A stretch of DNA of 64,000 nt from Acholoe squamosa. Lineage: Eukaryota > Annelida > Polychaeta > Phyllodocida > Polynoidae. Where the stretch lies: contig OX439036.1 in the NCBI GenBank assembly GCA_949317995.1, positions 108,913,669 through 108,977,668 of the forward strand, given 5' to 3'. The position numbers and the translations under genes were made by a program. Each line of letters starts with the position of its first letter. The stretch's first letter is position 1. The notes below the pieces were generated by a model. That model was not told the origin of the DNA, ran no database searches, and saw nothing but the letters and a program-made list of their open reading frames with translations. Positions 1,394 to 52,189 of the stretch are shown in pieces.

Positions 1394-3519
1394 TTATGGA
1401 GGCTGGATATCATCCAGCTCCCTAAGTGTCTTATCATACATCACTCTCAGCCTATCACCAAACCTTGAATATTCTTCAATTTCTCTGTATTCATTTCCAA
1501 GGGAATTCCACAAAGCAGCACATTTATATTCTACTCCTTTTTGAACTTTGACTCTGCGGGTAAAGAAGGTTTTTAACAGCCTGTTATCATGTGCTCGTGT
1601 ACAAAGTTGTCTATTGTCCACATAGTTTTTATCCAGACTTCTTTTAAATGCAAATTTCAGAAAGTGTTGTTCCCTTCTTAACCAGAGTGGTAATACCTTG
1701 TATTTTTGATGTAATTGTAATTTGTCTAAGAAGGGAGGGGATCTGTTGCAGATACGTAAGCATCTGTTTAAATGTAGTTGCATTTCATCAAGTTTGCCTT
1801 TTGGGGCTGCACTATAGATGATATCGCCATAATCAATGTATGAGATTATCATTTTTGTTACAACGTCTAGGGTTGCTTTTTCTGTAAGTTGCTTTCTTAC
1901 TTTACGTATCAAGTAAATCTTGTGAGATACATTTTTAGACAAGACTTGCATGTGTTTATTGAAAGTTAACTGACTATCCAGGGTAACACCTAGATATTTG
2001 TACGTGGGGACGTATTTAATTTCTTGGTTTTGAACCTGCAAATTGATTTTTGGATGTTTATTGAGCATTGTCTTGGTACCGAATGTCATTAGTTTAGTTT
2101 TACCAATATTCAGTGGAAGTTTGTTTGCCTCACACCATCTTACTAAATTAAATGTGTCATTTGTGATGTGTTGATTAATCTCAGGAGTTTGTTCTTTATA
2201 GGATATAAAAATAGCAGTGTCATCCGCATAGTGCTGTGCCTTCATGTGGTTTAGACAGGAAGCAAGATCGTTTATATAAATGATAAAAAGTAAGGGCCCT
2301 AACGTGGAACCTTGGGGTACCCCATGAGAAATTTTATGTGGTTCAGATGTGGTGTTATTGGCTCTAGTACATTGGGTTCTGTTTGTAAGATTGGATTCTA
2401 ATAGTTTTTTTGCATTTTGGCTGAGACCAATTTTTTCTAGTTTTTTTAACATGATTTTATGATCTAGAGTGTCAAATGCTTTCCGAAAATCAATAAATAT
2501 ACAGGATGTCACAGAGTTTTTATTTAATGCCTTGTAAATGTGATCAGTGAATTTTGCAAGGCTGTGGACAGTGGAACGCTCTTCTCTAAAACCATTTTGG
2601 TCCTCTGTTAATATATCATTATCTTTTAGATGTGTAGACAATTGTGTATGCAATATTTTTTCAGTAAGCTTTGAGGGGAATGGAAGGATAGAGATAGGTA
2701 TATAATTATTGACTTGAGTCTTATCACCTTCTTTAGGAATAGGAGTTACTGTAGCATTTTTCCATAAATCAGGGAAGCTTGACTTTTTGATAGTGTTGTC
2801 AATGATGTGCTTAAAGTGAAGTGGAAGCATAGTTAGTGCATCTTTTAACACTGTAGTAGATATGTATGGTATGCCAGAAGGTTTATTTATATTTATATTT
2901 TTTATGACCTTGATAACTTCTTCATCTGTGGGTAGTCGAAAGTTAAAATGTGGGGGAAGTACATTCTGTGTATATACCCAGGGTTCAGTCATGTTTTTTT
3001 GCTAGATTTGCCCCTATGTTTGAAAAATATTGATTTATGTATTCTGCCGTTTGATTATGATCCACTTGTACCCCTTCGGAATCAGTAATATTAATGTTTG
3101 CTACATTGGATTTGGGGTTAATAACATTGTTAATTTCTTTCCAATATTGTCGGGGGTTTTCAAGGTTTGCATTGATTTTGTTTTTATAGAATGCATTTTT
3201 TGCTGTGCGGTTTAATGCTTTTGAGCGCCTCTTAAGAAATTCTGCAATCCTCATGTCATCAATATTTTTTGTTTTCCTGGCATGTTTCATAAGATCCAAT
3301 AGTTCCCTCGTAATCCATGGTTTTTTGGATTGTTTAAAATTTGACTGTCTAATTGGGCATGTAATGTTCAATAGAAATTCAACCTGATTAATAAATAGTT
3401 GTCAGGCTTCCTCTGGGTCCTCTGAGTCCCAGAAGGCATTCCAATCACTATTTTTAAGACCAAGTACGAAGTTCTCCTTTACATAATGCTTATATGAGCG
3501 ACCAAAAAATGTTAACTTT
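1394..3519 (-). pseudogene. LINE-A ORF2, linker and reverse transcriptase part
   Basis: The linker (3519 to about 2985, with an in-frame TGA at 3402-3404) contains the KPWITREL-type segment usual between EN and RT. A shift at a seven-A run (2994-3000) leads into a 532-codon RT frame. RT motifs: PISILPFPSKL, QNGFREERST, FIDFRKAFDTLDH (motif A aspartates), GVPQGSTLGPLLF (motif B), YADDTAIF (motif C, catalytic YADD) and KYLGVTLD. One conserved Arg in the NYRPIS motif is Ile. The protein ends ELDDIQPP shortly before the 3' UTR, and no RNase H follows. Confidence 0.9.
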
Positions 3520-4285
3520 TCTTTAGGGGGGGAATATATTTTCTCGTGATGTATACTGGTTCATGATCACTAATATTAATAAAACAATTTCCGCAACTTT
3601 TGATGTCGTCTGAATTGGTGGATATTAGGTCCAGAAGTGAAAATTCGTAGTTTGGATTAAAATAGGTTGGTTTTTTGATTATCTGTTTTATTCGGAGAAA
3701 ATTAAAAAGGTGTGTGAGTGCCTTGACTTGTGGATCATTTCTATGTAGCATGTTGGTATTCATGTCACCCATAATGAAAACCTCATTGTCCTTTAAAGGG
3801 CCCAGGTTTCTCATTGCTTTTGATAATGTCTCACTAAAGTTATGAAAGTTTCCATCGGGAGGTCTGTATACTGAAGCAATTACAACAGGTTTCAGGTTTG
3901 GTTTTGAAAGTGTGGCCCACATAATTTCAATCTCAGCATTGCTGGTATTCAAGTGAGAGACATTTGTCTCTGATACTGTCACACTCTCATGCACAAAAAT
4001 GGCCACACCACCCCCTTTTTTAATTTTACCATTTTCGATACGTTGTCTATCCAACCTTAATAGATGATAGTGGTCAATTGCAACTTGGTTTGATTGTAAT
4101 TTTTCACTCAGCCAGGTCTCTGAGATGGTTAAGCAGTGAAGACCATTGTCTTCCATAGCTAGTCTCAGGTCACTTATATTGGCTGGGAGACTATGAGCAT
4201 TCCAATGTGCCATGTGTAGGCCCTTGGACAAGAACACAAAATCATCCGACATCAAAGGCTTGGCTGTTGAGAGGATGTACAGCAT
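3520..4285 (-). pseudogene. LINE-A ORF2, AP-endonuclease part
   Basis: An APE-type endonuclease that would nick target DNA to prime reverse transcription. Visible motifs in order are HWNAHSL near residue 30, SETWL, GGGVAIFV, YRPPDG, GDMN, LLDLIST and SDHEPV. The last holds the catalytic Asp-His pair. The frame stops right after the domain because of a shift at a seven-C run (near 3525); in another frame the sequence continues without a gap into the linker. All key acidic and histidine positions I can judge are present. Confidence 0.88.
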
Positions 4286-4310
4286 ACAATGTAAATGAAT
4301 AATTCTCCAC

Positions 4311-5149
4311 AGTTAATATTATTTCATGATCATCAACCCCACACTTCATGTGGGAGCAGTTGCATAATTTAATCTGATATTTGGTTTTCCCGAATAAACT
4401 CAGCACAAGCATTGGCATTCTCAGACCATGGCAGAGGGAAACAAGTTCACACCTAGAGTCAATGTTCTCTCTTTAACCAACAGCCCAAAGCAGATATTCC
4501 AATTTTCCACTCTGATGGAACGGTCCCCTTGAGAAGCTGCCATTAACCGGTCGGTGAGCAGCTTAAGACCTCGGGTTGAGAAGCTCACTCTGCAAACATG
4601 TCAGTGATCTGAGCTGCTCACCATGGCAACAACTGCAGACTGGAACTCTCCAGGATTAAAGGGGAAGGTCCTGACTGGCCAAATGCCATTGGAATGTTTT
4701 GGTACCCACTTGAACATAACACAGGCAATCACCAACTACTGTACAATAAGGGAGAGGGGGGGGGGTGAAAATAATAAGGCTTTGGCTGATGACATTCACT
4801 GCCTTTAAATTGTGCAGTGAATTTACCTATGATTGGTACATGAGGACTTGTTTCAATGTATGATTGGTTTAGGGTGATGATAGAAACTAACATCTCATGT
4901 CTTTAAAAAATAAACTGAAGAACAATGTATAACACAATAGGAGGCTATAAGTTGAAAGGCAGTGTGGTTAGGAGACCAGTGTAGTTCAAGGTAGTGGTCA
5001 GAAATCTGAGCTGCTGAGAGGGATTTCAGGTATGGGAATAACACCTCATTCCATGCACTATTGGTACTAAAGCAATGGCTTGATATCACTCTTTGTTTTC
5101 ACCTTTAAAAGAAAAGAGAGAGGAATGACCCATGTCTAAAATGACCTCT
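4311..5149. other. Unassigned sequence with one short inverted repeat
   Basis: No coding sequence is supported. The only clear structure is a perfect 11-bp inverted repeat, GGTGAGCAGCT at 4553-4563 against AGCTGCTCACC at 4612-4622, with a 48-base spacer. Confidence 0.4.
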
Positions 5150-7264: not shown

Positions 7265-8636
7265 GGTAGCATTTGTCTTTAATAATGACTATCCAACCCA
7301 CAAGTTGTAATGGCTATTTGACTCATATTACACCTAATTGTAGTTGTGAATATGTGGAAGTAGACTTTGGCTATCACTCTTTACAGCTACACATGAGCCT
7401 TCTGTAGCGGCTCTATGCAATGTCAGAATGTATGTTTCATTCAATTATTTCTTAACTGCGCCGACCAATTCTGGAAATGTTCAAAATAAGTATGGGCCAA
7501 TTCAGTAATTGCATTGTATGCATATTTGTTGCTGCGCTTTATTTGCATAAGTGTATTTATACCATTCATGATTATTTAAAAAGGTAATGATGACCTGAAA
7601 AATTTACTTTTTTTCCTTTCATCAAAGGTCACTGAGGTAGGTGATGATGATATGTTAATTGTGTTCTGAGGACAGATGTGTAAATGTGAACATGATATTG
7701 TAGTCGGCTCATTTTTGATATTTCTTTTAGGTTACTTCTCAAGAAGGTATTATACGGGGATCCCTGACCCCAATGTCATTACAGCCCTACATCATATGGG
7801 CACTAATAATTTCACTAGTATGTCTGTTTTACCCAAACCTATGTTAATACTTCTTTAGGTGCTTATGGTACAGAGCCACTGTAAGAAATCACCTACGATC
7901 ACACACTCTAGTTTAGAGCGTCTGTAGTCGTAGGTGCTGTAGGCAGTCGTACCATGTTGAGAAATGCCATCCAGGGCACAGAACTACACAACATAGATGT
8001 AAGAGGCTACTGAATGGGCCTGCGGAACCTACCTTCCTGTACTGTATACTGGTCTTGTAGGCAAAAAGGGATACAAAGTACCCGTCAAGTGGCACAAATT
8101 AGAACTATGGTATGCTCTCTTCTTTTTTGTCTTAATAACATATCTAATCACAATACATATAACATGTGTTTATATTCTTCTCATTTTCAATACAGTCTAT
8201 ATCTTAAGATGCACAAAGCTAGATAATCATTGCGCATGGTTTATATATGTCAGTTTTGATAGTACTTCGAATGAGTATAGGATTAGCCCAAATTTGTATT
8301 GGGATTGCACTGCAGGAAATACGGGAAACAATTTCCCATCCCCCACCCAGACGAAAAGGTTCTTACACTGTAACAACTGCAGGAATAAGATGTATCATGT
8401 TTTAATAAGTCTAATGATGGGCTGGGTCATTCACCTTGCCATGAGGTGCCTACTGAAATAGCAATTCCAGCATAATTACAACAGTGCATGTCATTTCCGT
8501 GTAGCCTGATGTTCATTACTGGGCGTAAGCTTAATCATCCATGTGTGTTTTCTATGAATATCATTAGAGCAGGCTGTCTGGATTATATCACCTGAGCTGT
8601 TCCGCAGCAGATATTAAGAAAAAAGAGAGTCTAAAG
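7265..8636 (+). repeat. Tandem array copy 2 (1372 bp, lacks a 120-bp segment)
   Basis: Same start and end as copy 1. It lacks about 120 bp that are present at about 6504-6624 in copy 1 and in copy 3; the junction is near 7705. It keeps the 290-bp segment missing in copy 1. Confidence 0.92.
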
Positions 8637-10128
8637 GGTAGCATTTGTCTTTAATAATGACTATCCAACCCACAAGTTGTAATGGCTATTTGACTCATAT
8701 TACACCTAATTGTAGTTGTGAATATGTGGAAGTAGACTTTGGCTATCACTCTTTACAGCTACACATGAGCCTTCTGTAGTGGCTCTATGCAATGTCAGAA
8801 TGTATGTTTCATTCAATTATTTCTTAACTGCGCCGACCAATTCTGGAAATGTTCAAAATAAGTATGGGCCAATTCAGTAATTGCATTGTATGCATATTTG
8901 TTGCTGCGCTTTATTTGCATAAGTGTATTTATACCATTCATGATTATTTAAAAAGGTAATGATGACCTGAAAAATTAACTTTTTTTCCTTTCATCAAAAG
9001 TCACTGAGGTAGGTGATGATGATATGTTAATTGTGTTCTGAGGACAGATGTGTAAATGTGAACATGATATAGAAGTCTGCATAATATAGGCCAATATCAC
9101 TTGACACCTATCTTCTTTTATATTATAATGGTTGATCCATACAATGTCCACAGAAATAATGTAAATATGTATGGATTGATAAATGTGATTTGAATTGGCT
9201 CATTTTTGATATTTCTTTTAGGTTACTTCTCAAGAAGGTATTATACAGGGATCCCTCACCCCAATGCCATTACAGCCCTACATCATATGGCCACTAATAA
9301 TTGCACTGGTATGTCTGCATTACCCAAACCTATGTTAATACTTCTTTAGGTGCTTATGGTACAGAGCCGCTGTAAGAAATCACCTACGATCACACACTCT
9401 AGTTTAGAGCGTCTGTAGTCGTAGGTGCTGTAAGCAGTCGTACCATGTTGAGAAATGCCATCCAGGGCACAGAACTACACAACATAGATGTAAGAGGCTA
9501 CTGAATGGGCCTGCGGAACCTACCTTCCTGTACTGTATACTGGTCTTGTAGGCAAAAAGGGATACAAAGTACCCGTCAAGTGGCACAAATTAGAACTATG
9601 GTATGCTCTCTTCTTTTTTGTCTTAATAACATATCTAATCACAATACATATAACATGTGTTTATATTCTTCTCCTTTTCAATACAGTCTATATCTTAAGA
9701 TGCACAAAGCTAGATAATCATTGCGCATGGTTTATATATGTCAGTTTTGATAGTACTTCGAATGAGTATAGGATTAGCCCAAATTTGTATTGGGATTGCA
9801 CTGCAGGAAATACGGGAAACAATTTCCCATCCCCCACCCAGACGAAAAGGTTCTTACACTGTAACAACTGCAGGAATAAGATGTATCATATTTTAATAAG
9901 TCTAATGATGGGCTTGGTCATTCACCTTGCCATGAGGTGCCTACTGAAATAGCAATTCCAGCATAATTACAACAGTGCATGTCATTTCCGTGTAGCCTGA
10001 TGTTCATTACTGGGCGTAAGCTTAATCATCCATGTGTGTTTTCTATGAATATCATTAGAGCAGGCTGTCTGGATTATATCACCTGAGCTGTTCCGCAGCA
10101 GATATTAAGAAAAAAGAGAGTCTAAAGG
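8637..10128 (+). repeat. Tandem array copy 3 (1492 bp, complete)
   Basis: Contains both segments that copies 1 and 2 lack, so it represents the full unit. It has a few more substitutions around 9240-9320 than copies 1 and 2 have from each other. It is followed by the unit I tail. Confidence 0.92.
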
Positions 10129-17040: not shown

Positions 17041-17405
17041 CTGGAGCGTGTTGCTCCTATAGTAAAAGGAGCTGTCAATAGCTACCCTCTTTTCAAAAGA
17101 AGTCACGCTCTGCTTCACCATTCAACTTGCACTCACCACATAAGTCTGAAAAGTCACCTGCCTTGTTTATAACAGAGAGAGCTGCACTATCAGGTACCTA
17201 CTCATGTCACACACTCCATAGTATATTATACTGACTGACTTCTCCCAACTAGGTACCTACTCAAATCCCCTTTTTGAGCACCGTACTTGAATGTCCACTT
17301 GTGAGCAACAAAAAGGACAAGTTATAGCTACATGAAAAGAAAGGACTGGAAACAAGGGCACTTTTAGCCAGCTCTTCCTTTTACTATAGGAGCAACACCC
17401 TCCTG
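17041..17405 (-). mobile_element. MITE, family T (copy 1, inverted)
   Basis: 365 bp. The right end reads GCAACACCCTCCTG, and the left end CTGGAGCGTGTTGCTCC is its inverted counterpart. Terminal repeats of roughly 30 bp include TAGTAAAAGGA. The GGAGC-GTGTT-GCTCC string near the tip is itself a small hairpin. It is the reverse complement of copy 2 along its whole length. It has no ORF, and no clear target duplication is seen. Confidence 0.88.
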
Positions 17406-17881
17406 TTGGTAAATCGATCTATGGCACATCATTTGAAAAAGTCAAATATCTTGGTCTTCAAGGTATATGTCATGAATGATGTGTGTCGGACCCAATAATT
17501 GGGGACTAATGAGATGGCAAACCAAATGCAACAACATCAAGGCTAGAGTCTGAAGGAAGATGAGTTTTGAATTGACATTTCAACCGAGCAGTAAAATAGT
17601 AGAAAATTCATTGATAAAATGCATGACTGATCCACCACAAAGGGAAAATAGCTGCATTTTTTAAAATTTAAAACTCTTTCTGTGAGGAATGCTTTGAATT
17701 ACCACACACAAATATGTTACTGTGATGCCATGCTGAAATGAAACAAAAAACCTATACAATAAACACAGAAAAAAAAGGATGGTCGTATTTCTGGGTGCGG
17801 GTGCCTCCAGGGGTGCTTATGGTTATATTGTACAATGCTTTTATATATTTGTAACCTAGATTAACACTTCAATTGCTGAGA
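17406..17881. other. Unassigned sequence
   Basis: No gene, RNA or transposon end recognised. Confidence 0.35.
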
Positions 17882-18376: not shown

Positions 18377-18742
18377 CGGGAGGGTGTTGCTCCTTTAGTA
18401 AAAGGAAGAGCTGGCTAAAAATGCCCTCGTTTCCAGTCCTTTCTTTTCATGTAGATATAACTTGAACCTTTTGTTGCTCACAAGTGGTCATTCAAGTACA
18501 GTGCTAAAAATGGGGGATTTGAGTAGGTACCTAGTTGGGAGAAGTCAGTCAGTATAATATACTATAGAGTGTGTGACATGAGTAGGTACCTGATAGTGCA
18601 GCTCTCTCTGTTTTAAACAAGGCTGGTGCCTTTTCAGAGTAATGTGGTGAGTGCAAGTTGAATGGTGAAGCAGAGCGAGACTTCTTTTGAAAAGAGGGTA
18701 CCTACTGACATCTCTTTTTACCATAGGAGCAATATGCTCCTG
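18377..18742 (+). mobile_element. MITE, family T (copy 2, intact reference)
   Basis: 366 bp, from CGGGAGGGTGTTGCTCC to GGAGCAATATGCTCCTG. It serves as the uninterrupted reference for copy 3, which LINE-C splits. It contains two AGTAGGTACCT motifs. No coding sequence. Confidence 0.88.
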
Positions 18743-26164: not shown

Positions 26165-27863
26165 TTTTTTGTTTTGAATTCACTTTATTTGTCAAATTTA
26201 ATTCTTCATACATTAACTAACAGTAGAAACAATATTATTGACAAACATAAGCATGTCAAAGCATAGAAGAAAGTACAACTGATCAAGTTATTTGTACAGG
26301 AAATGGATTAGTGTCAACAATATTATATAGTAGATATCAAGTAATGACAATAAAAGAAGGCAGAGGACCTCATCCCCACAAGTGTGTTTGGGTTGGTACT
26401 TCTGGTCCTACCTGACTTATGGATTATATTAGAAACTTATGACACTTAATTATACAAGTACTAATGGAGAATATATGGAGAATACATACGTGGGGGGGTA
26501 TAATAGACATTAAAAAAAAAAAAGCAATATCTGTAACATTAGGTTTTCTTTCAGTAGGTAGTTCGTGTACACACAGCACATAATAATAGTAAATTAGTCC
26601 TCATCGTAGGGCAAAAATTTTTTCATCAGGATAATTGTATCATTTTTAAATTTAATAAATTCAGGAGTATTTCTTCGGTACTTTGATAAGGAGTTCCAAG
26701 CAATGGCACCATGGAATTCTACACTTCTAGCATAGGAGAGACAGTTTGGGGTAATACATTTAACAGTAGGGGCATCATGTAAACGAGTTGTAAGATTTCT
26801 TTTATCCCTATATACATCGCATCTCGATCTGTTGTACGTATAATTTAATAAATGAGCATTTCTCCTATCGTCCAACATATTCAGTCCAGTGGTATTATGT
26901 ACATATTTTGTATTGGTTAAATGTGGAACTTTTAAACAGATTTTTAAACACCTATTTTGTGCATATCGGAGTGGGTCCAGATACTTATCGTAGGTAGACA
27001 TGAATACAATATCTGCATATTCCATATAGGGTAATATAGTTGATTTATATATTTGTATAGCCAATTTAACATCTAGATATTTTCTTAGTAGACATAGTTT
27101 GTAAGTTTTATAGGCTATGGTTTTAACTTTATTGCTTAGATGTAAATTGTAATGAAGAAGTGGGTCCAATATAACACCTAGGTACTTATAACTTGGTACA
27201 ACTTGTAATAATTGGTCGTTAAGTTTGATGTTCACAGTTAGAGTATTCAATCTCCTTGTACTAGAGGAGAAAAGCATAATTTTTGTTTTAGAGGCATTTA
27301 TAGATAGTTTATCTTGAATACACCAGGTTTCGTAAGCCTCTAGATCATTCTGTAGATGTGATTTTGCATGATCAAAAATGTTTTGAGAGGAATAAATAAC
27401 AGTATCATCAGCATATAGTCTTACTTCGCAATTTTTCACACATTTTGTAACATCATTGACATAGATTAAGAAAAGTAAAGGACCTAAAATTGAGCCCTGG
27501 GGTACGCCACAGGACACTTTAGCTCGGTCAGATAATATTCCATTAGCCATGGTAGTTTGATATCTGTTTTCTAAGTAATTTTTAAACCAGTGATAAGTAT
27601 TCGATCGGATACCATAGTGATGTATTTTGGTTAATAAAACTGAGTGGTCCACAGTGTCGAAAGCTTTCTTGAGATCTATAAAAGCAGCTACTATTGATTT
27701 ACCCACATTTAGATTTCTTTTAATATCATCAGTAAATTTTGCCAATGTATCAATAGTACTAAAGCCGGATCTGAACCCACCTTGCTTTGGTGTTAATATG
27801 TTTTCTTTTATTAGAAATCCATAAACTCGGTTATGTACAATTTTTTCAATTAATTTAATGTAC
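26165..27863 (-). mobile_element. LINE-B: 5'-truncated copy of the LINE-C family
   Basis: The sequence is homologous to LINE-C from RT motif 2a (KLIEKIVHNRV) to the 3' end. The 3' UTR shares the GACCTCATCCCCAC and TCTGGTCCTACCT strings (plus-strand reading) with LINE-C. The AATAAA signal is the complement of 26184-26189. The 5' junction lies near 27860, where the sequence leaves the LINE. 5' truncation is usual for incomplete target-primed reverse transcription. Confidence 0.9.
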
Positions 27864-27889
27864 CTGGTAAAGGACATCCTGTGGGTCAT
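26594..27889 (-). pseudogene. LINE-B reverse transcriptase fragment
   Basis: A 431-codon frame with no internal stop. The first codons (to about 27863) are flanking DNA, not LINE. Motifs: QGGFRSGFSTIDTL, FIDLKKAFDTVDH (motif A), GVPQGSILGPLLF (motif B), YADDTVIY (motif C) and YLGVILD. The catalytic aspartates are intact, but the endonuclease and the N-terminal fingers are missing, so it cannot act as a complete ORF2. Confidence 0.9.
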
Positions 27890-28858
27890 TTCTCAACATG
27901 CTAAGACTGCACCCTCCAAGACATACCAAAATTGCCATAGGAATAGCACTGAGGTTTTTAGTCATAGGGATGTTTGCGAATGAAGGGCTTTAAGAAATGA
28001 CCTCCAGAGATAAGCATATATAGATTTTTTATGATATTTCACTGATGTGCAGGGTAGAATAGCATTTTAAAAATGGTTAAATGAAGAAAAAGAATTAAAA
28101 AAGAAAGTGGATCCCTCTCAGGGTCACTCGCAGCCATACCAGACCAAAGGAATAATTTAGGCAATTAGACACTGATCTGAGGGTAACAATGTGTAACAGC
28201 AATTCAGTAACTCTCTATGCGGCACAGTGAACTCCATCCCTGGTGAGACAACACAACACCAACTATACTAGAAAAGGTGGTCATGATATAGGCCCTGTTG
28301 TCACATGTGTGCTCACAGTAGCAAATAACAAACTTGTCTTGAAGACAATCAAATTCTGATTTGCCTTTTTGATGTGAATATTATATTATGGAGAGAGAGC
28401 TTTTCAAACACTTAGAAAGATGAAATGCTCTCAGCATTCCATTCATCAACCTCCGAAAGATTCACTTACAGATGCATAGAAAGCAAAGGTTACCATGGTG
28501 ACCTTAAGGATACTTTACTGAGTCAGTGATCACAGAGCTAGCCCTCCACTGTGATCCATATTCTCATCGCAATCTGTAGAACATTGACAGTGCTTTAAGA
28601 AGAATTACCATGCTCTCTGCTTAATTGTCCTGCTACAATTCTTTTTTCGATAGAACTTTATCAAGGTGATACAATATATAGTTGGGACTCTGAGCTATGG
28701 GTAGCACACAGATGTGCCACTCAAGCCTTTTCTTTACCAACTTCACCTATTACCTGTAGCATTAGTACCTGCTAAGAACCTCAATGGGGCTATGCTCCAC
28801 TCGCTACAGTCGACCCTGACTTCCTCAACCCTCAAATTCCTAAGATCCCTCATTACCT
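27864..28858. other. Unassigned flank of LINE-B
   Basis: No gene recognised. CTTTAAGAAATGACCTCCAG near 27988-28007 resembles the complement of the hairpin arm at 37277-37297, possibly a small repeat shared between the two loci. Confidence 0.35.
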
Positions 28859-28929
28859 CAGGAGGGTGTTGCTCCTATAGTAAAAGGAAGAGCTGGCTAA
28901 AAATGCCCTCATTTCCAGTCCTTTCTTTT
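28859..28929 (+). mobile_element. MITE family T copy 3, left fragment (71 bp)
   Basis: Matches bases 1-71 of copy 2 (18377-18447), starting CAGGAGGGTGTTGCTCC. It breaks at CTTTCTTTT, where LINE-C begins. The right fragment resumes at 34563, and the two total 366 bp, the same length as copy 2. Confidence 0.92.
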
Positions 28930-29354
28930 TTCTTTTTTTTTTTTTTGTTTGAATTTACTTTATTTGCCTTTTTAAAATTTTCGATGAAGTCTTACATGGT
29001 GTTCAATTGTAACATTAGTCCGTTGTTCTCAATTTTTTAACAAAGTTATTTCCAATTTACATTGATATAGTAATAATCATAAGTGTCCGACAAAACACTG
29101 AACCCTCACAGGTGTTCAGGTTTATTTGGGCACCTGAAATATAGCTTGGAGTACATGTAGGCAAATAAGAAGGTATGGACCTCATCCCCACTTAGTTAGT
29201 GTCTGGGTTGATCCTTCTGGTCCTACCTAGGTATAAATATATATAAGCACAGTAACATGACACAGTAAAATATAGTATAATATATGAGGGTTAACATGTG
29301 GGGGGAAACAGCAAGCCATCTTATCCAGCAAAGAGATTAGCTAGATGGTAACCT

Positions 29355-32227
29355 TTATCCATAGGGCAGCAGTAATTTAAGAAATTGTAAACTATCTTTT
29401 TTAAATTTCCCTTTGGTTTCAGCATTTCTTCTGCCCACTGGAAGCAGGTTCCATTGTTGAGCACCATAGAACTCTATGCTTTTAGCATATGAAACACAAT
29501 TTGGGGTAATAATCTTACATGTAGGGGCATCATGTAGGCGAGTAGGTAATATGTTAATAGCCTTATAAACATTGGACCTAGATCTATCGTACATGTAATT
29601 CAATAGATGGGTAAACCTTCTATCTTTCAGTTTATTACAATTTGTTTCATTATGGATAAGATTGGTATTGGTGATATGAGGAACCTTTAAGCAGATCTTT
29701 AAACATCTATTCTGAGCAAATTGGAGAGGCTCCAGGTATTTGTCATACGTGGTTGTGAAGCATACATCAGCATAGTCCATATAAGGTAGAATCGTCGCTT
29801 TATATATGTTAATAGCTGTTTTCACATCTACATATCGTCTAAGTAAACACAGTTTATATGTCTTATAAGCTATAGTTTTTACCTGATTTTTTAGGTGTAG
29901 CCCATATGAAAGTAGAGGGTCTAATATCACACCTAGGTATTTGTAGCTAGAGACCACCTGTAATAAGTGGTTATCTAATAAGATGTTAGCTTGAAGCATT
30001 TTTAATTTTGTGGTTGAACTTGAGAAAATCATGACCTTTGTTTTTGCCACATTGATAGACAATTTGTTTTGAATACACCATGTTGAGTAATTTTCTAAAT
30101 CTTCCTGTAACAATCTTTTGGATAAATCAAAGTCATGATTAGAATTGTAAATTACAGTATCATCTGCGTAAAGCTCAACTTTACATGATTTAATACAATT
30201 TGTTACATCATTGACATATAGTAGAAACAATAAAGGACCTAATATTGAGCCTTGTGGGACTCCACTGACAACCTCCTCTTTGTCAGAAATAATTCCGTTT
30301 GCAAAAACCATTTGTTTTCTATTACTTAAATAATCTTTGAACCAGTGGTAGTTATCTGATCTTATTCCATAGTGGTGTATTTTTATTAGTAAGACAGAAT
30401 GGTCTACCGTATCAAACGCCTTCCTAAGGTCTATAAAGGCTGCAACCGTAGAATTTGCTATATTTAGCTCCCTTTTAATATCATCCGTAAATTTGGCTAG
30501 GGTATCAATTGTGCTAAAGCCAGAGCGGAAACCACCTTGGTTGTGAGTCAATATATTTTCTTTCATCAAGAAACCATAAACTCTATTATGTACAATTTTG
30601 TCAAGAAGTTTACAAGGTAAGGGTAGAATCGATATAGGTCTATAGTTATTTACATATAAAGAATTACCAGCTTTGGGTATTGGGGTTATTTTTGAAATCT
30701 TCCATGAATTTGGTACACTATTTGAGGTAAAAGATAGATTGAATAATTTGACCAATTTCTCAGGAATATGTTTAAAGATGATTTTAAGTATTGATGAGGA
30801 GATGTTATGAATAGCAGATGATTTAATAATGTTAATATCGTTCACTAGCTTTAGTACTTCTTGTACATTGGTTTCCATGGGGTCCATTTGTGCTGTAACT
30901 TTTTTATCATAAGGTTGCCATGGAATGTTAAGATCTCGGGCTAGGGTTGGACCAATGTTTGCAAAATAATTGTTTATGAATTTGGGGATATCTTCTTTAG
31001 GGACAGGTGTGTCATTAATATTATGGTCTACTAAACGTATGTCTTTTTTTGAGTTTGGGTGGCCCGGTATAAGATTGTTTATAACATGCCAGAATTTTCT
31101 ATGGTCATTTTAATATTCCACAAGTTGATCTTTAAAGAAATTTTTCCTGGCTTTGTCAATAATTTTATTGGCTGTGTTTCTGGCATCGGTTGCCTGTTTC
31201 CATTTTAAATCTGTTTTTCCTTGTCTGGCTTTCCAAAGTATTTTTTTTTGTCTCTTATAACTTCATAAATATTTTGTGTCATCCAAGGGTCTCGATATTT
31301 TTTTACTAGGAATTTGTGTAGGGGGGCATACTTATCTAATATTTTTCTAATGATTTCTTCAATGCAGTTCCATGCAGTCTCAACTGATTGAGTGTTGTTG
31401 AAGGTAGACCAGTCAGCATTGTCTATTTCTCTGAGAAGTAAATCTTTTGGAAGTTTGCTGTATGATCTTCCTTCAATATAGACCTTTTCCTCTACAATAT
31501 TCCATTTTTTCCTAATAAGGAAAACAGGCAAGTGGTCTGAAATTATGTTATTGGCAACACCAGCATTTACAAAGTTCCGTCTTAAATTTGTGAAAATAAG
31601 GTCTAATGTGGCATTTTTACGTGTAGCCTCCGTTATTTCTTGGTTTAGTCCAAAACTCTTCATCTTGTTTAGTAAATTATTAACAGCATCTGAATCTTCA
31701 ATCACATTAAAATTGAAGTCACCCATAATTACAACTTCCATATTATCATAATTATCTATAGATTCCATTTGGGCTAATAAATCAACCATTATTTCAGTGA
31801 AGTTTAACTTCGAGCCCTCAGGTGGTCTATATAGGTTTACAAGTAGAAGTGGTTTCAAGTTGGGCTTATTAATTGAAATGGTTTGTATTTCAATGAGTTC
31901 ATTTGACATATTGAGATGTTCAAAAGCATTATAACTGTGTGGAATAGTATGTTTGATATAAATAGCTATTCCTCCTCCTGTTTTTATATTACCTCTATCA
32001 TCTAGTGTTTGTCTATCTAACCTATATCTAGTATATCCATTGAATTGGTAATCACTTTCATCGTCTTCTGCTCTAAACCAAGTTTCAGAGAATGTATATA
32101 TGTCAAGCAATGCTGAATATAATTCTGCACAAATAGAGGCATAGTTTGCTTTAATACTTCTGGCATTTAAATGCAGAATGCGTAGGCCTCTGGTACCTTT
32201 AAGTTGATCAATTGATTTGTAGTGCAT
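29355..32227 (-). pseudogene. LINE-C ORF2: AP endonuclease and reverse transcriptase
   Basis: About 957 codons. Endonuclease motifs: HLNARSI, SETWF, GGGIAIYI, YRPPEG, GDFNFN, TLDLIFT and SDHLPVF. The linker holds DPWMTQNIY and is interrupted by a one-base frameshift at an A9 run (31241-31249) and by TAA at 31110-31112. RT motifs: NNYRPISILPLPCKLLDKI, QGGFRSGFSTIDTL, FIDLRKAFDTVDH (A), GVPQGSILGPLLF (B), YADDTVIY (C) and YLGVILD. It ends KLLLPYG with no RNase H. It would nick target DNA and prime cDNA on the element's RNA. All catalytic acids I can judge are present, so it decayed recently or is mis-sequenced at the homopolymer. Confidence 0.93.
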
Positions 32228-32689
32228 AGCGGTTTAGTATATTACCGGTACATATAATAGTAGATAATGTGGGACAATACATGAGATTTATGCTGTTTCC
32301 CCCATCCCTCAGGTCAAAATATTTATTTCTCGTCAGGTCATAGGCTTCGGCCTTTATGCCACCCATGTTGACAAAATTAAGATTTTCAGGGCTGTATGTA
32401 GTTATGAGTCGCTGGGGGATCTCTACTTCATAAGAAAAAAAAACAATGTATAGAGGTAAATTTTGAGAAGTTTACAGATTGATAATGTATTATAAGACAA
32501 TGTGGTGCGACAACAGCACGCAGAAGTTATAGTATATCTCAATGTAACAAGATCATTAGATTTTGATGGTTTACCCATGTCCACGAGCTTAAGGAATTAA
32601 TGGGTAATTTACTACCTTACATGTCATAGTATGGTGTATAATAATTCTACACTGATCAGTTGTTATCAGAAAGATAGATAGATAGGAGT
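32228..32689 (-). other. LINE-C inter-ORF spacer
   Basis: 460 bp between the ORF1 stop and the ORF2 ATG, with no ORF. It may carry signals for ORF2 translation, but none are recognised. Confidence 0.6.
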
Positions 32690-34190
32690 TCATATAGTCA
32701 TTTGTTGGGCATTTTGAAGTCTTATTTCTTCTTGAGTAGGTAGGGGATCTTCTCCAGTGAGTGAGCGCCTTACTTTGACCAGCAGCTCGCCTAGTTTGTT
32801 GTCACAGTCAGATTTGGAGACATTTTGTATGTTTATTTCCTCTTTCTGTCCCAGGTGGTGCCCGCATCCGTATGTTTTATGGGTAGTGGCCTCATACAAA
32901 TATTTGCCTTTAGAGTTGATAAGTGAGTCTCGGAGGGCTGGGATGGAGAATTTGATGACTAGGAGCTTTTCCATTACTTCTTGTTCCATGTCTAGCCATT
33001 CGTTGCTTTTGGTACATGCCTTGGCTGCATATAGGCAATCCAGAGAAGTTGGAGCTGCTAATACCTTTCGTAGTACTGGCATTTCTTTTGAGACAAGGCA
33101 CATTTTAGCACTGTAAGCTCACTCGATAGAGTCATATGAATGGCCTTCAAACAAGATCTCACAATTGTATAGGTTGGAGAATGGGGAGTATTCACCCTGG
33201 AAGGCAAGCCCATCAGGGGTATTAACAGTTTTAGCATTGGCTAACGAAAGGTCATGGGGCAGCTTGTCTATGTCCTTATATTGGTAGGTTTTGCCAGCGA
33301 TTACAATCGTCGTTCCCCTGACTGTACAGTCTATTCCTTTAGATTTGCCCAGGGCTTGTATCGATCTAAGGTTTCTTTGCATTTTTTTTTTCTTCTTGTG
33401 TAATGTCATCCGAGAGGTGTACCCCTCTCCAGGTGTTGTTGTTCTTGAGCCTACCCACATTGCCAAAGATCTTCATCTTATATTGTGCGGAGGAAAATAC
33501 TACCACAATCGGCCTGGTTTTGGGTTTGAAGTGTGGGTTTCTTTTTTGTGCTGGAGTAGGGATTTGTTTTTTCCCTCTTCGATATACTGCATCAGCCACA
33601 GTGTTCGTAAAGTCTAGGCCCACATCATTAATTAGCTGGTCTAAAATGTCTCGGAGGCTGGTGGGAGTATCTTCGATAATCCCTTCAATAATCAGAACCT
33701 TTTTGCACCTTTCCTGCTCAATTTTAGAGAATTGTTCACTATATTTGTCATTTTCAGTTTGGATCTTTGCCACATCCTGTTCGTTTTTAACTGTTTTATC
33801 ACTGTAGGTATTCAGGGCTTGGTCAATGTTGTCACATCTTTTATCAATTTCCTGCAATGTGGGAGTTTTACCTGTTGGGAAGCCCTCAGGCCCGAATAGG
33901 CGTAGTTCCATACCGTGTAGTATTCCCACTGTCCCTCTATTTATGTCTTCTTGGGATTTAATACGTGCTTCCAGCTCGTTTATTTTGTCAACAAGGACTT
34001 TTGTGCTTGCTTTATAGTCAAGTTTGGGCAGATATTTGGGTTCATCTTCATCAGAGGATGGATTTTCTATTGTCATTTTAGAAGTTTTTGTTAGACCGGA
34101 AGTGCCTTCCGCCATATTGGATTTAACAGGTTGGTGGTCCGTTTGGGGAAGTGGTTTCGTACTTCTGGTTCGAGAGGGCATTTGAAACAA
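32690..34190 (-). pseudogene. LINE-C ORF1: coiled coil, L1-type RNA-binding core and C-terminal NADAR domain
   Basis: About 500 codons. The N-terminus is polar and acidic (SSDEDEP). A coiled-coil region at about residues 60-150 is rich in K, E, Q, I and L. An RRM-like part follows (KVLIIEGI ... RPIVVVFSS ... GVHLSDDIT), then a CTD-like part (TVRGTTIVIAGKTYQYKDI), as in L1 ORF1p (Transposase_22), which binds RNA and acts as a chaperone. From about 33211 to 32750 it matches NADAR (YbiA/COG3236/DUF1768): YSPFSNLYNCEI, SIE at 33122-33130, W....EVMEKLLVIKFS, LYEAT, YGCG, then NKLGELLVKVRRSL. NADAR members act on ADP-ribose-like or riboflavin-pathway N-glycosidic substrates; the role here is unknown. 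A frameshift at T10 and a TGA just after the conserved Glu break the frame. Confidence 0.85.
32750..33211 (-). other. NADAR-like domain region of LINE-C ORF1
   Basis: The region covers about 150 codons, the usual size of the family. Conserved positions seen are the YSPFSN opening, the Glu of the SxE motif, the W..EVM.....KF helix, the YG.G turn and the N.LG.LL...R ending. The residue after the Glu, usually His, is replaced by TGA. The assignment is by eye from family knowledge and needs a profile search. Confidence 0.8.
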
Positions 34191-34334
34191 ATATTTTCCA
34201 ATATGAGTAGGATGTGTAGATTGAGTTTGAAGATTGTAGGATTAAGGTTTGGAGGGGTGTAATTGCCCTATTTAAGCTCAAGATTTGTACCGTTGATGTT
34301 GTTGTCGCGTTGTGGAGTCAACAGGCCATGGGCG

Positions 34335-34345
34335 CCGCCATCTTG
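34335..34345 (-). promoter_or_regulatory. YY1-type motif in the LINE-C 5' UTR
   Basis: On the sense (minus) strand this reads AAGATGGCGGC, the YY1 consensus, about 220 nt from the 5' end. Human L1 uses a YY1 site in its 5' UTR to position transcription start, so a similar use here is an inference. Confidence 0.45.
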
Positions 34346-34562
34346 GAAAGATCGCTGACCCGGTTTCTTGGCGAAGATTGAGGTGTAAATATCGGTTGAA
34401 GTTATAGTCCTGTGGCTCTATATACCTCTTTTTCTTGAACTTGGTAAGTTTAAATCTCAGATTTCCTCGTAAATATAGGTGAAGCAATCTCAGGTTGCTC
34501 GTAACTCATAGAAATCCCCGGAGCTCGTCGCCCTACGTTTCTAGCAGTGTGCCATTGTTTCG

Positions 34563-34857
34563 CATGTACCTATAACTTGTCCCTTTTGTTGCTCACAAGT
34601 GGTCATTCAAGAATGGTGCTAAAAAAGGGGGATTTGAGTAGGTACCTAGTTGGGAGAAGTCAGTCAGTATAATATACTATAGAGTGTGTGACATGAGTAG
34701 GTACCTAGTAGTGCAGCTCTCTCTGTTTTAAACAAGGCAGGTGACTTTTCAGACTAATGTGGTGAGTGCAAGTTGAATGGTGAAGCAGAGCTTGACTTCT
34801 TTTGAGAAGAGGGTAGCTACTGACAGCTCTTTTTACCATAGGAGCAACACGCTCCTG
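34563..34857 (+). mobile_element. MITE family T copy 3, right fragment (295 bp)
   Basis: It resumes at CATGTA, the base after the left fragment's last base when aligned to copy 2, and ends GGAGCAACACGCTCCTG. It closely matches copies 1 and 2. Confidence 0.92.
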
Positions 34858-50983: not shown

Positions 50984-52189
50984 TCAGACTGTATCTGGGG
51001 TCTTACTATAGAAATCGATACTGGCCTCATCTTTATGCCCTGTCACACTTTTGATATCCTTTGCTAAAACACCCTGAGGGTAGTGATAGTGGTAGCTCTA
51101 ATGCAATGATTTGTGTAAATTTTACTGAGTTTGGCCTCTTTTGAAATGGCTGGCATCAACTTCCGAATAGTGTTTATACCCATGGATGTTTTAGTGTACC
51201 ATGTGGTACTGAGCCTATAGTTAGATTTTTTGGCTGTTTGAGAGAAGGCTGGGTTTTCTGGATGTAATTTACCAAGATACATTTTCATACTTTTCAATGG
51301 ACAGTTTTCTCCACCGGTTCCGTACATTCTTTGATCATGTTCTATACCATTTTCATCTTTTTTAAAGATGAAATGACTGTTTTCCAATTCATGAAGCCCC
51401 TCTCTAGCCCTACAACCAAACTGTAATGACATTTCATAATATACCTTCCTCTGGAGTGAGGTGGGATTCTGATTTGAAAGTATCATACAATTTTTTTTGA
51501 TCTGCTTGGGTTCTTGATTCATAATGAGTTGTTACATTGAGCCCAGACTTCTTGTTAATCTTAATATGCCCTTTGAGAACATTATTAGCTTGAATGAAAG
51601 GTGAATCTGTCATGATATTGTACTTGACATTATGTGGAGATCCAGTTAGAAATCTGTGCAGTCCAGCTCTGATACATAACAGTGAAGTTTTAGAGCACAT
51701 TTTGCCATCTTTGGTTTGGACCTGACCATAGAACTTCCTGAGAATTTCTGCAAGGGCACATCGAGTATAAGGATATCTCTCGTAATAACAAAGCGAATTT
51801 AATGATTTTTTTCACATACCTTTTATTATATCCAATGCACATTTTGTCTGTTTGTGTGTGGCCTTGGCTTTTGCTGAAGCCTCCATGTTTATCAGTTCTT
51901 CATTGTTTGGGGCGAATCTATTGTTATTGCTGACCTTGGGTTCTTTGTTTACTTTTGGTGTTGCCGGTGGTTCAATGGGTGCCTCCTCTTCATTCATTTC
52001 AAGCTTACCCCGTCTCAGGTTTCTAGCTACTTGCACCACCTCTGTTCCATCAGATTATAATCTAATCTTATATTTGTAGTAGCTACTAAAAATAACTTCT
52101 TCGATTACTCCTAAAATCCACCCATCTGGTGTATCGACCTCGACAATATCCCCCTTCGTATACAATGACTTGAAAGACATCGAAGCCAT
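50984..52189 (-). pseudogene. SH3/Tudor-like domain fused to a Crypton-type tyrosine recombinase (DUF3504/KIAA1958-like)
   Basis: The ATG at 52189 is in a good context (A at -3, G at +4). Exon 1 (52189-51820) starts MASMSFKSLYTKGDIVEVDT and resembles an SH3/Tudor-type barrel (DGWILGVIEEV ... YYKYKIRL), then a Pro/Glu linker, then RFAPNNEELINM, typical of this recombinase family. A 72-nt intron (51819-51748, GT-AG) splits a Glu codon. Exon 2 carries the core-binding part (LLCIRAGLHRFLTG) and the catalytic part with RAREGL (first Arg), KK, NHCIR (HxxR), GHK and the Tyr at 51008-51010. Disruptions: an in-frame TAA in exon 1 (about 52056), a frameshift near 51460 and a one-base loss near 51078. 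The catalytic residues survive in pieces. Crypton-derived domains occur both in transposons and in host genes, and either origin fits. Confidence 0.85.
51748..51819 (-). other. Intron of the recombinase pseudogene
   Basis: 72 nt. The donor reads AAAAG/GTATGTG and the acceptor CCCTTGCAG/AAATT. Splicing restores the frame between IIK and ILRKFYGQ. Confidence 0.75.

Follow-up and report, generated by a model that had tools for sequence, protein, structure and literature searches.

NADAR domains have been reported from retroelements and from RNA viruses (statements cited here and below draw on parts of the respective papers). Divergent NADAR-like matches were described in 2025 in the first open reading frame (ORF1) of several Tx1 long interspersed nuclear elements (LINEs) of Crassostrea gigas, where they were proposed to take part in the processing of RNA intermediates, and Gypsy elements of Ectocarpus carry a NADAR in Pol, for which blastp matches outside Ectocarpus are almost only bacterial (PMC12477816). 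Among RNA viruses, NADARs occur in the polyproteins of nidoviruses and picornaviruses (PMC9503650). For LINE ORF1s themselves, types I–V and the shuffling of ORF1s between LINE clades are established; type II is found in L1 ORF1p and also in CR1, L2, and R1, and the word NADAR is absent from the main text of this classification (PMC4120745). Here, we analyzed a 64,000-nucleotide stretch of the genome of the polynoid annelid Acholoe squamosa (contig OX439036.1, positions 108,913,669–108,977,668; hereafter the window, numbered from its first letter), and specifically a LINE whose ORF1 joins an L1-type RNA-binding core to a C-terminal NADAR domain. An initial annotation made from the sequence had suggested that no LINE with such an ORF1 was described; with NADAR in the ORF1 of oyster Tx1 LINEs already in print, the architecture is not wholly new. 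Among the papers listed in a survey of mostly non-subscription literature, with Repbase outside its scope, PMC12477816 was the only one seen to link NADAR with retrotransposons, which does not show absence from print.

Placement and architecture of the NADAR-bearing ORF1

The LINE runs on the minus strand from its 5′ end at 34562 to an A-rich 3′ end at ~28930 and, at ~5.6 kb, is full-length but decayed. Its limits can be read from the miniature inverted-repeat transposable element (MITE) that it splits: the two halves (34563–34857 and 28853–28929) together match, end to end, a pair of uninterrupted copies (17043–17412 and 18379–18742), both continuous across the insertion point. The first half matches 17043–17334 at 94% and 18448–18742 at 93%, and the other half matches the corresponding ends of the same two copies at 94–97%. 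An A-run leaves the 3′ limit imprecise, and no clear target-site duplication was seen at the LINE ends (28930–34562). As the initial annotation had argued from the split MITE, the NADAR-coding part thus lies inside the LINE. ORF2 includes an endonuclease part (31205–32233, minus strand; Exo_endo_phos E 1.2e-7) and a reverse transcriptase (RT) part (29355–31109, minus strand; RVT_1 E 8.5e-39), with a frame break between them in this copy; together with the A-rich 3′ end, these two parts identify the element as a LINE.

ORF1 spans 32690–34181 on the minus strand, with its ATG at 34181. Alignment with relatives places the N-terminus and coiled coil at approximately residues 1–164 (33690–34181), followed by an L1-type core of RNA recognition motif (RRM) and C-terminal domain (CTD) at approximately residues 165–321 (33215–33689), delimited from a profile match to human LINE-1 ORF1p (2ykp). 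The NADAR domain follows at 32750–33214, the tblastn span of the database relative P0028 (33214–32750). With X placed at the two breaks of the window copy, ORF1 matched PF08719 (NADAR) over residues 331–475 at 48.1 bits, against a cut-off of 35.1 (E 2e-12), and the open piece 32690–33118 alone still reached 38.8 bits (E 1.4e-9), so that the profile search proposed with the initial annotation returned a significant match. A profile built from three sequences, i.e., the window ORF1 and two relatives, matched human LINE-1 ORF1p (2ykp/2yko; E 2.6e-4) at profile positions 69–227 and, further along, the NADAR structure 8bau (E 2e-12) and E. coli YbiA (2b3w; E 8e-4). Because a single profile matches first L1 ORF1p and then NADAR along one protein, the core can be assigned to type II ORF1 and the tail to NADAR, which bears out the order of domains first read by eye. 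We take 8bau to be the Phytophthora protein of PMC11543638, whose numbering fits the residue spacing of 8bau. The NADAR assignment rests on the profile match and two catalytic acids, and is not a claim of a proven hydrolase.

The window copy itself does not encode ORF1 as one frame: a frame break falls in an A-run at ~33382–33391, and an in-frame TGA interrupts the NADAR at 33119–33121. This copy is dead. Ten sister copies were fetched for comparison (L035–L044), and three of them (L037, L038, and L039) hold ORF1 as a single 496-codon frame, such that the proposed continuous reading from core into NADAR holds for these three and not for the twice-broken window copy. In a fourth (L036), ORF1 is open, but its start codon is altered and codon 493 is a stop; the other six are broken or partial. 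None of the ten has the window TGA. At the A-rich stretch, eight of the ten have another length and no frame break, and the two that share the window length (L041 and L043) are both decayed; the stretch may slip repeatedly, an alternative being a frameshift site in an older subfamily. L038 and L039 lie on different chromosomes and are followed by the same ORF2, 90% identical over 2 kb and open as far as fetched. Overall, a DNA search with the window ORF1 yielded 42 genomic matches (best 40 of 311 candidates scored), of which 40 overlap the NADAR-coding part, while the remaining two are pieces of split loci whose partner piece does; copies that end ORF1 after the CTD, which would have spoken against the domain as part of the family, were not seen among them.

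We next considered selection, using dN/dS (the ratio of non-synonymous to synonymous substitution rates) estimated by the Nei–Gojobori method for 13 pairs of the window family, which are not independent since they have copies in common. For the NADAR, dN/dS was 0 for L038–L039, which differ once, and 0.06–0.19 in ten further pairs, including 0.07 (bootstrap 0.03–0.14) for L037–L038; the two pairs without a value involve L043, with 35–39 codons left in the domain. The corresponding ranges, each in 12 of the 13 pairs, were 0.05–0.16 for the RRM and CTD and 0.04–0.29 for the coil. Judged from these ratios, the NADAR is under purifying selection in the window family, much like the RNA-binding core, and other genomic copies carry it in frame. 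A longer view came from 11 nearly full ORF1s (55 pairs), in which mean pair identity was 0.551 for NADAR, 0.554 for the RRM, 0.548 for the CTD, and 0.377 for the coil, i.e., NADAR is as conserved as the RRM and CTD and far more so than the coil. Taken together, these sequence comparisons make us nearly certain that the ORF1 of this LINE couples a type II (L1-like) RNA-binding protein to a C-terminal NADAR, and that the NADAR is a selectively maintained part of the element. This maintenance suggests that the domain has a use while the element copies itself.

NADAR-bearing LINE families in the genome and beyond

NADAR-coding loci were sought across the 1.48 Gb assembly. With PF08719, the best 150 of 3224 candidates were scored, all 150 lay above the curated cut-off, and seven had in-frame stops. 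In a second search, with the database relative P0001, the best 98 of 3343 candidates were scored; all 98 reach the NADAR (query residue ≥402) and 13 include a stop. Both candidate totals are loose first-look counts rather than copy numbers. The best A. squamosa matches of P0001 are 31–35% identical, an identity from which this protein would belong to a different species. From the 150 scored loci, 20 were picked by hand, favoring long open frames, and in these the ORF1–NADAR unit is followed by clearly different ORF2s.

Family 524 (L015, L017, L018, L031, L032, and L034) has an L1/Tx1-like ORF2, with 355 bits to human L1 ORF2p (8sxt) and a zf-RVT match slightly under its cut-off; the four loci compared are 97–99% identical over 5.7–6.7 kb. 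Family 757 (L016, L019, L020, and L023) has a divergent RT, and its copies are 99.2–99.5% identical over 5.3–6.0 kb. L021 and L022 agree at 99.9% over 6.55 kb; a further match starts between the two ORFs, as a 5′-truncated copy would. L024 and L025, 88% identical over 4.1 kb, are nearest to the window LINE in both RT (46%) and NADAR (35%). In all four of these groups, long high-identity copies extend across ORF1–NADAR and ORF2, indicating that the unit moves as a whole, and the copies that are >99% identical are probably recent. The same order of ORF1–NADAR and then ORF2 recurs in the diverged copies L026/L027/L033 and L028/L030. L033 also has a 301-residue open frame between its NADAR ORF1 and ORF2 (L033:5084–5986, plus strand), with no Pfam match at E 0.01.

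Constraint on the domain extends to several of these groups. For L024–L025, NADAR dN/dS was 0.09 (0.04–0.17). Silent sites are saturated among L026, L027, and L033, where NADAR dN was 0.07–0.18, the lowest of the ORF1 parts, vs 0.19–0.33 before the NADAR, and likewise between L028 and L030, where it was 0.42 vs 0.56 in the preceding part. For families 524 and 757, both young, the NADAR dN/dS of 0.31–0.37 comes with intervals reaching 1 or more, and the copies differ too little to reveal selection.

The L1-type core was not found in the ORF1 of family 757. In L020 (2874–5144, plus strand), and also in L016 and L019, this ORF1 has the NADAR (residues 411–556) followed by a C-terminal part whose best Protein Data Bank match is 4c1b, the ZfL2-1 ORF1p esterase (E 0.049 as a single sequence, 0.033 as a profile), alongside a Pfam SASA esterase match below cut-off (E 0.002). 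From these weak signs, NADAR and an esterase possibly share one ORF1 in this family.

In an RT tree of 14 rows, human L1 and family 524 were split from the rest, including the window LINE, with support of 99/99; family 757 sits on a long branch and its placement is unsure. The window ORF2 thus does not group with L1/Tx1, and its motifs presumably resemble those of the CR1/L2/Jockey group. On this tree, LINEs with NADAR fall on two or more deep RT branches, one L1-like and one not. A cross-clade swap of ORF1 and ORF2 was considered for L029, whose NADAR is 52% and ORF2 23% identical to family 757, and was rejected: the 40 other matches all begin at query position 1769 or later, and the downstream ORF2 therefore belongs to a separate LINE. 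The 5′ end of this abundant element, at L029:5969, directly follows the NADAR ORF1 and mimics an ORF1–ORF2 pair. L029 was removed from the pairings, and is still a row in the trees of the RT-tree analysis.

Elsewhere, three relatives came from a first protein search and 19 from a profile search; NADAR is present in 18 of the 19, P0019 being the sole one with the core and no NADAR. Sixteen of the 19 are on contigs of at least 64 kb and three on short metagenome contigs. In P0003, the NADAR leads into the beginning of an ORF2 of the window type (42% over 95 residues, E 4e-16). Three scans of viral contigs were made: one gave six loci with NADAR-like matches and two gave no relative.

The origin of the ORF1-linked domains was examined in a NADAR tree of 55 rows, comprising 20 ORF1-linked rows and 35 others hand-picked from search matches, with P0043 left out for poor coverage. 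The window's own NADAR clade, of 14 rows, had support of 100/97. The best tree implied four changes, at least two of them forced by well-supported branches, and a single clade appeared in no bootstrap tree; holding the 20 ORF1-linked rows together was not rejected (approximately unbiased test, p-AU 0.22). A tree of 139 rows, in which several ORF1-linked rows are unlabeled, implied six changes, at least five of them forced. The 55-row tree is compatible both with a single gain of NADAR that was then passed between ORF1s and with several gains.

Active-site residues and candidate functions

Residues E43, K50, and E125 of the Phytophthora NADAR correspond to E88, K95, and D171, which are important in the E. 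coli C7 NADAR (PMC11543638), and E125, a Glu in the last strand, marks the YbiA family (PMC11125620). We aligned 31 rows, i.e., 28 from the A. squamosa genome (two of them standalone genes), P0001, 8bau, and YbiA, excluding L009 and L032, which are broken within the NADAR. All 31 rows, the window included, retain E43 (the Glu of the SxE motif), W89, and E125; in the set of 18 database relatives plus the window, both acids again hold wherever they could be scored (E43 in 19 of 19 rows and E125 in 18 of 18).

A set of substitutions weighs against reading the domain as a conventional hydrolase. The phosphate-binding Lys50 is Met in the window family, with a Lys one place earlier, although the position is K or R everywhere else in the 31-row alignment; across the 18 database relatives and the window it is R in seven, H in five, K in three, and N, Y, A, and M in one each. 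The window clade further has His for D130 and Tyr for W133, and W89 is Thr in the relative P0011. In the E. coli C7 NADAR, the equivalent K95 is required for hydrolysis, and K95R is active in vitro yet does not rescue cells (PMC11543638). In the alignment, then, the window clade retains the acids predicted to hold the distal ribose, and the residues that would hold the phosphates (K50, D130, and W133) are changed. We infer an enzyme with altered substrate handling, with a binding module as the main rival.

Tested NADARs take ADP-ribose off guanine in DNA (PMC11543638, PMC11125620). In the mechanism that we tentatively favor, ORF1p would coat the element RNA and so bring the NADAR into the ribonucleoprotein (RNP), where it could act as an N-glycosidase on guanines of the element RNA itself, stripping off ADP-ribose or a similar N-linked ribosyl adduct; alternatively, it might act on the cDNA during target-primed reverse transcription. 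Because guanine adducts would block reverse transcription, their removal would protect the element against host ADP-ribosyltransferases. We give this proposal, that the NADAR removes ADP-ribose from guanine in element RNA or cDNA and thereby shields it from these host enzymes, slightly less than an even chance.

Instead of being an enzyme, the NADAR may serve as a scaffold or as a binding module, whether its partner is nucleic acid, ADP-ribose, or a host protein, at least in the window clade; we consider this unlikely but worth serious attention. The lost phosphate-binding Lys and the changed D130 and W133 would fit such a role, as would nematode SNA-3, an essential RNP protein with three NADAR domains, the first of which is without residues critical in YbiA (PMC9303266). 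Yet a plain scaffold would not need the two invariant acids, the other fetched families have Lys or Arg at position 50, and mutating conserved residues impairs SNA-3 function (PMC9303266).

A role at the integration site seems less probable. There, the NADAR would take PARP-made ADP-ribose off nicked target DNA or cDNA ends and let second-strand synthesis proceed, with no defense to break. PARP1 and PARP2 do accumulate at nicks made by L1, and both promote retrotransposition (review PMC8535693, citing Miyoshi 2019). However, since PARPs help L1, the use of reversing their mark is not obvious, and tested NADARs act on guanine bases.

Somewhat more improbable again is a role in which the NADAR clears small molecules, either ADP-ribose compounds or those of the riboflavin pathway, and has no target on nucleic acids. 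Riboflavin intermediates are substrates of YbiA, and for phage NADARs soluble ADP-ribose derivatives have been suggested as the main substrates, but macromolecular targets are favored for the NADARs of eukaryotic RNA viruses (PMC9503650, PMC9303266 for the former; PMC9503650 for the latter), and covalent fusion to an RNA-binding protein would imply a nucleic-acid target.

Two standalone NADAR genes (L007:1486–2151 and L008:1336–2076, both minus strand; 183 and 168 bits) share 63% identity across the domain, are ~57% identical to the NADAR of a land snail, and are probably host genes. That a neighboring host gene or chance insertion was mistaken for a part of the LINE is virtually out of the question, even though the window copy is broken and neighboring elements can mislead, as with the separate LINE start at L029: the MITE boundaries enclose ORF1–NADAR, intact 496-codon ORF1s exist, sister copies on other chromosomes share the order of ORF1–NADAR and ORF2 at 90% over 2 kb, and the standalone genes are only 21–22% identical to the window-family NADAR; the MITE boundaries and sister copies rule out a neighboring host gene as the source.

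The proposed removal of ADP-ribose from RNA or cDNA can be extended beyond the window family. NADAR may be a general ORF1 module, repeatedly recruited in several unrelated LINE families of an animal lineage (with L1/Tx1-like and other ORF2s, and with RRM-type and esterase-type ORF1s), that serves as a counter-defense by stripping ADP-ribose from RNA or cDNA; we regard this broader proposal as doubtful, although not far-fetched. If true, it would imply that animals defend themselves against retrotransposons by ADP-ribosylating nucleic acids. We know of no report of such a defense in animals. Nucleic-acid ADP-ribosylation is established in bacterial conflict, whereas what NADARs do in animals is an open question (PMC11125620). 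With a selfish element that retains a NADAR under selection on its RNA-binding protein, two points become testable, namely which host enzyme places the mark on retrotransposon RNA or cDNA and whether this mark is a defense.

Other elements of the window and comparison with known systems

The window includes two further LINE copies, both on the minus strand. The RT of a related copy lies at 26594–27892, with 71% protein identity to the RT of the LINE described above and no recognizable ORF1 within the window. A third LINE, with endonuclease and RT, lies at 1394–4312 and is ~35% identical; profile searches found neither an ORF1 core nor a NADAR for it within the window. Elsewhere, a 155-residue open frame at 51064–51531 (minus strand) resembles, by eye, the C-terminal part of a tyrosine recombinase (HCIRATTITTL), and two near-identical 152-residue open frames 1.5 kb apart, at 8003–8461 and 9494–9952 (plus strand), suggest a local duplication.

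Several features were not found in the literature examined: a non-Tx1 ORF2 paired with a NADAR ORF1, the number of such families in one genome, evidence for selection on the domain, a survey of its catalytic residues, and the weak sign of NADAR together with an esterase. Compared with described type II ORF1s, the window ORF1 has the same coiled coil, RRM, and CTD and adds ~150 residues of NADAR, and the finding thus adds a NADAR subtype to the ORF1 classification. With 8bau and E. coli YbiA (2b3w), the domain shares the sequence profile, both catalytic acids, and W89, whereas the window family differs in Lys50 to Met, D130 to His, and W133 to Tyr, and in the fusion to an RNA-binding protein. 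RNA viruses with NADARs are likewise replicating RNA-based parasites that carry the domain, a likeness drawn from description rather than sequence, and their replication machinery differs. The Ectocarpus Gypsy elements are also retroelements with a NADAR, although theirs sits in Pol. The C. gigas Tx1 LINEs, compared by description, share the presence of NADAR in a LINE ORF1, but the window ORF2 is unlike that of L1/Tx1, with the motifs GVPQGSILGPLLF and YADDT vs GTRQGCPLSPLLF and FADDM in L1. On these results, the brief oyster note in print reflects a wider group of NADAR LINEs.
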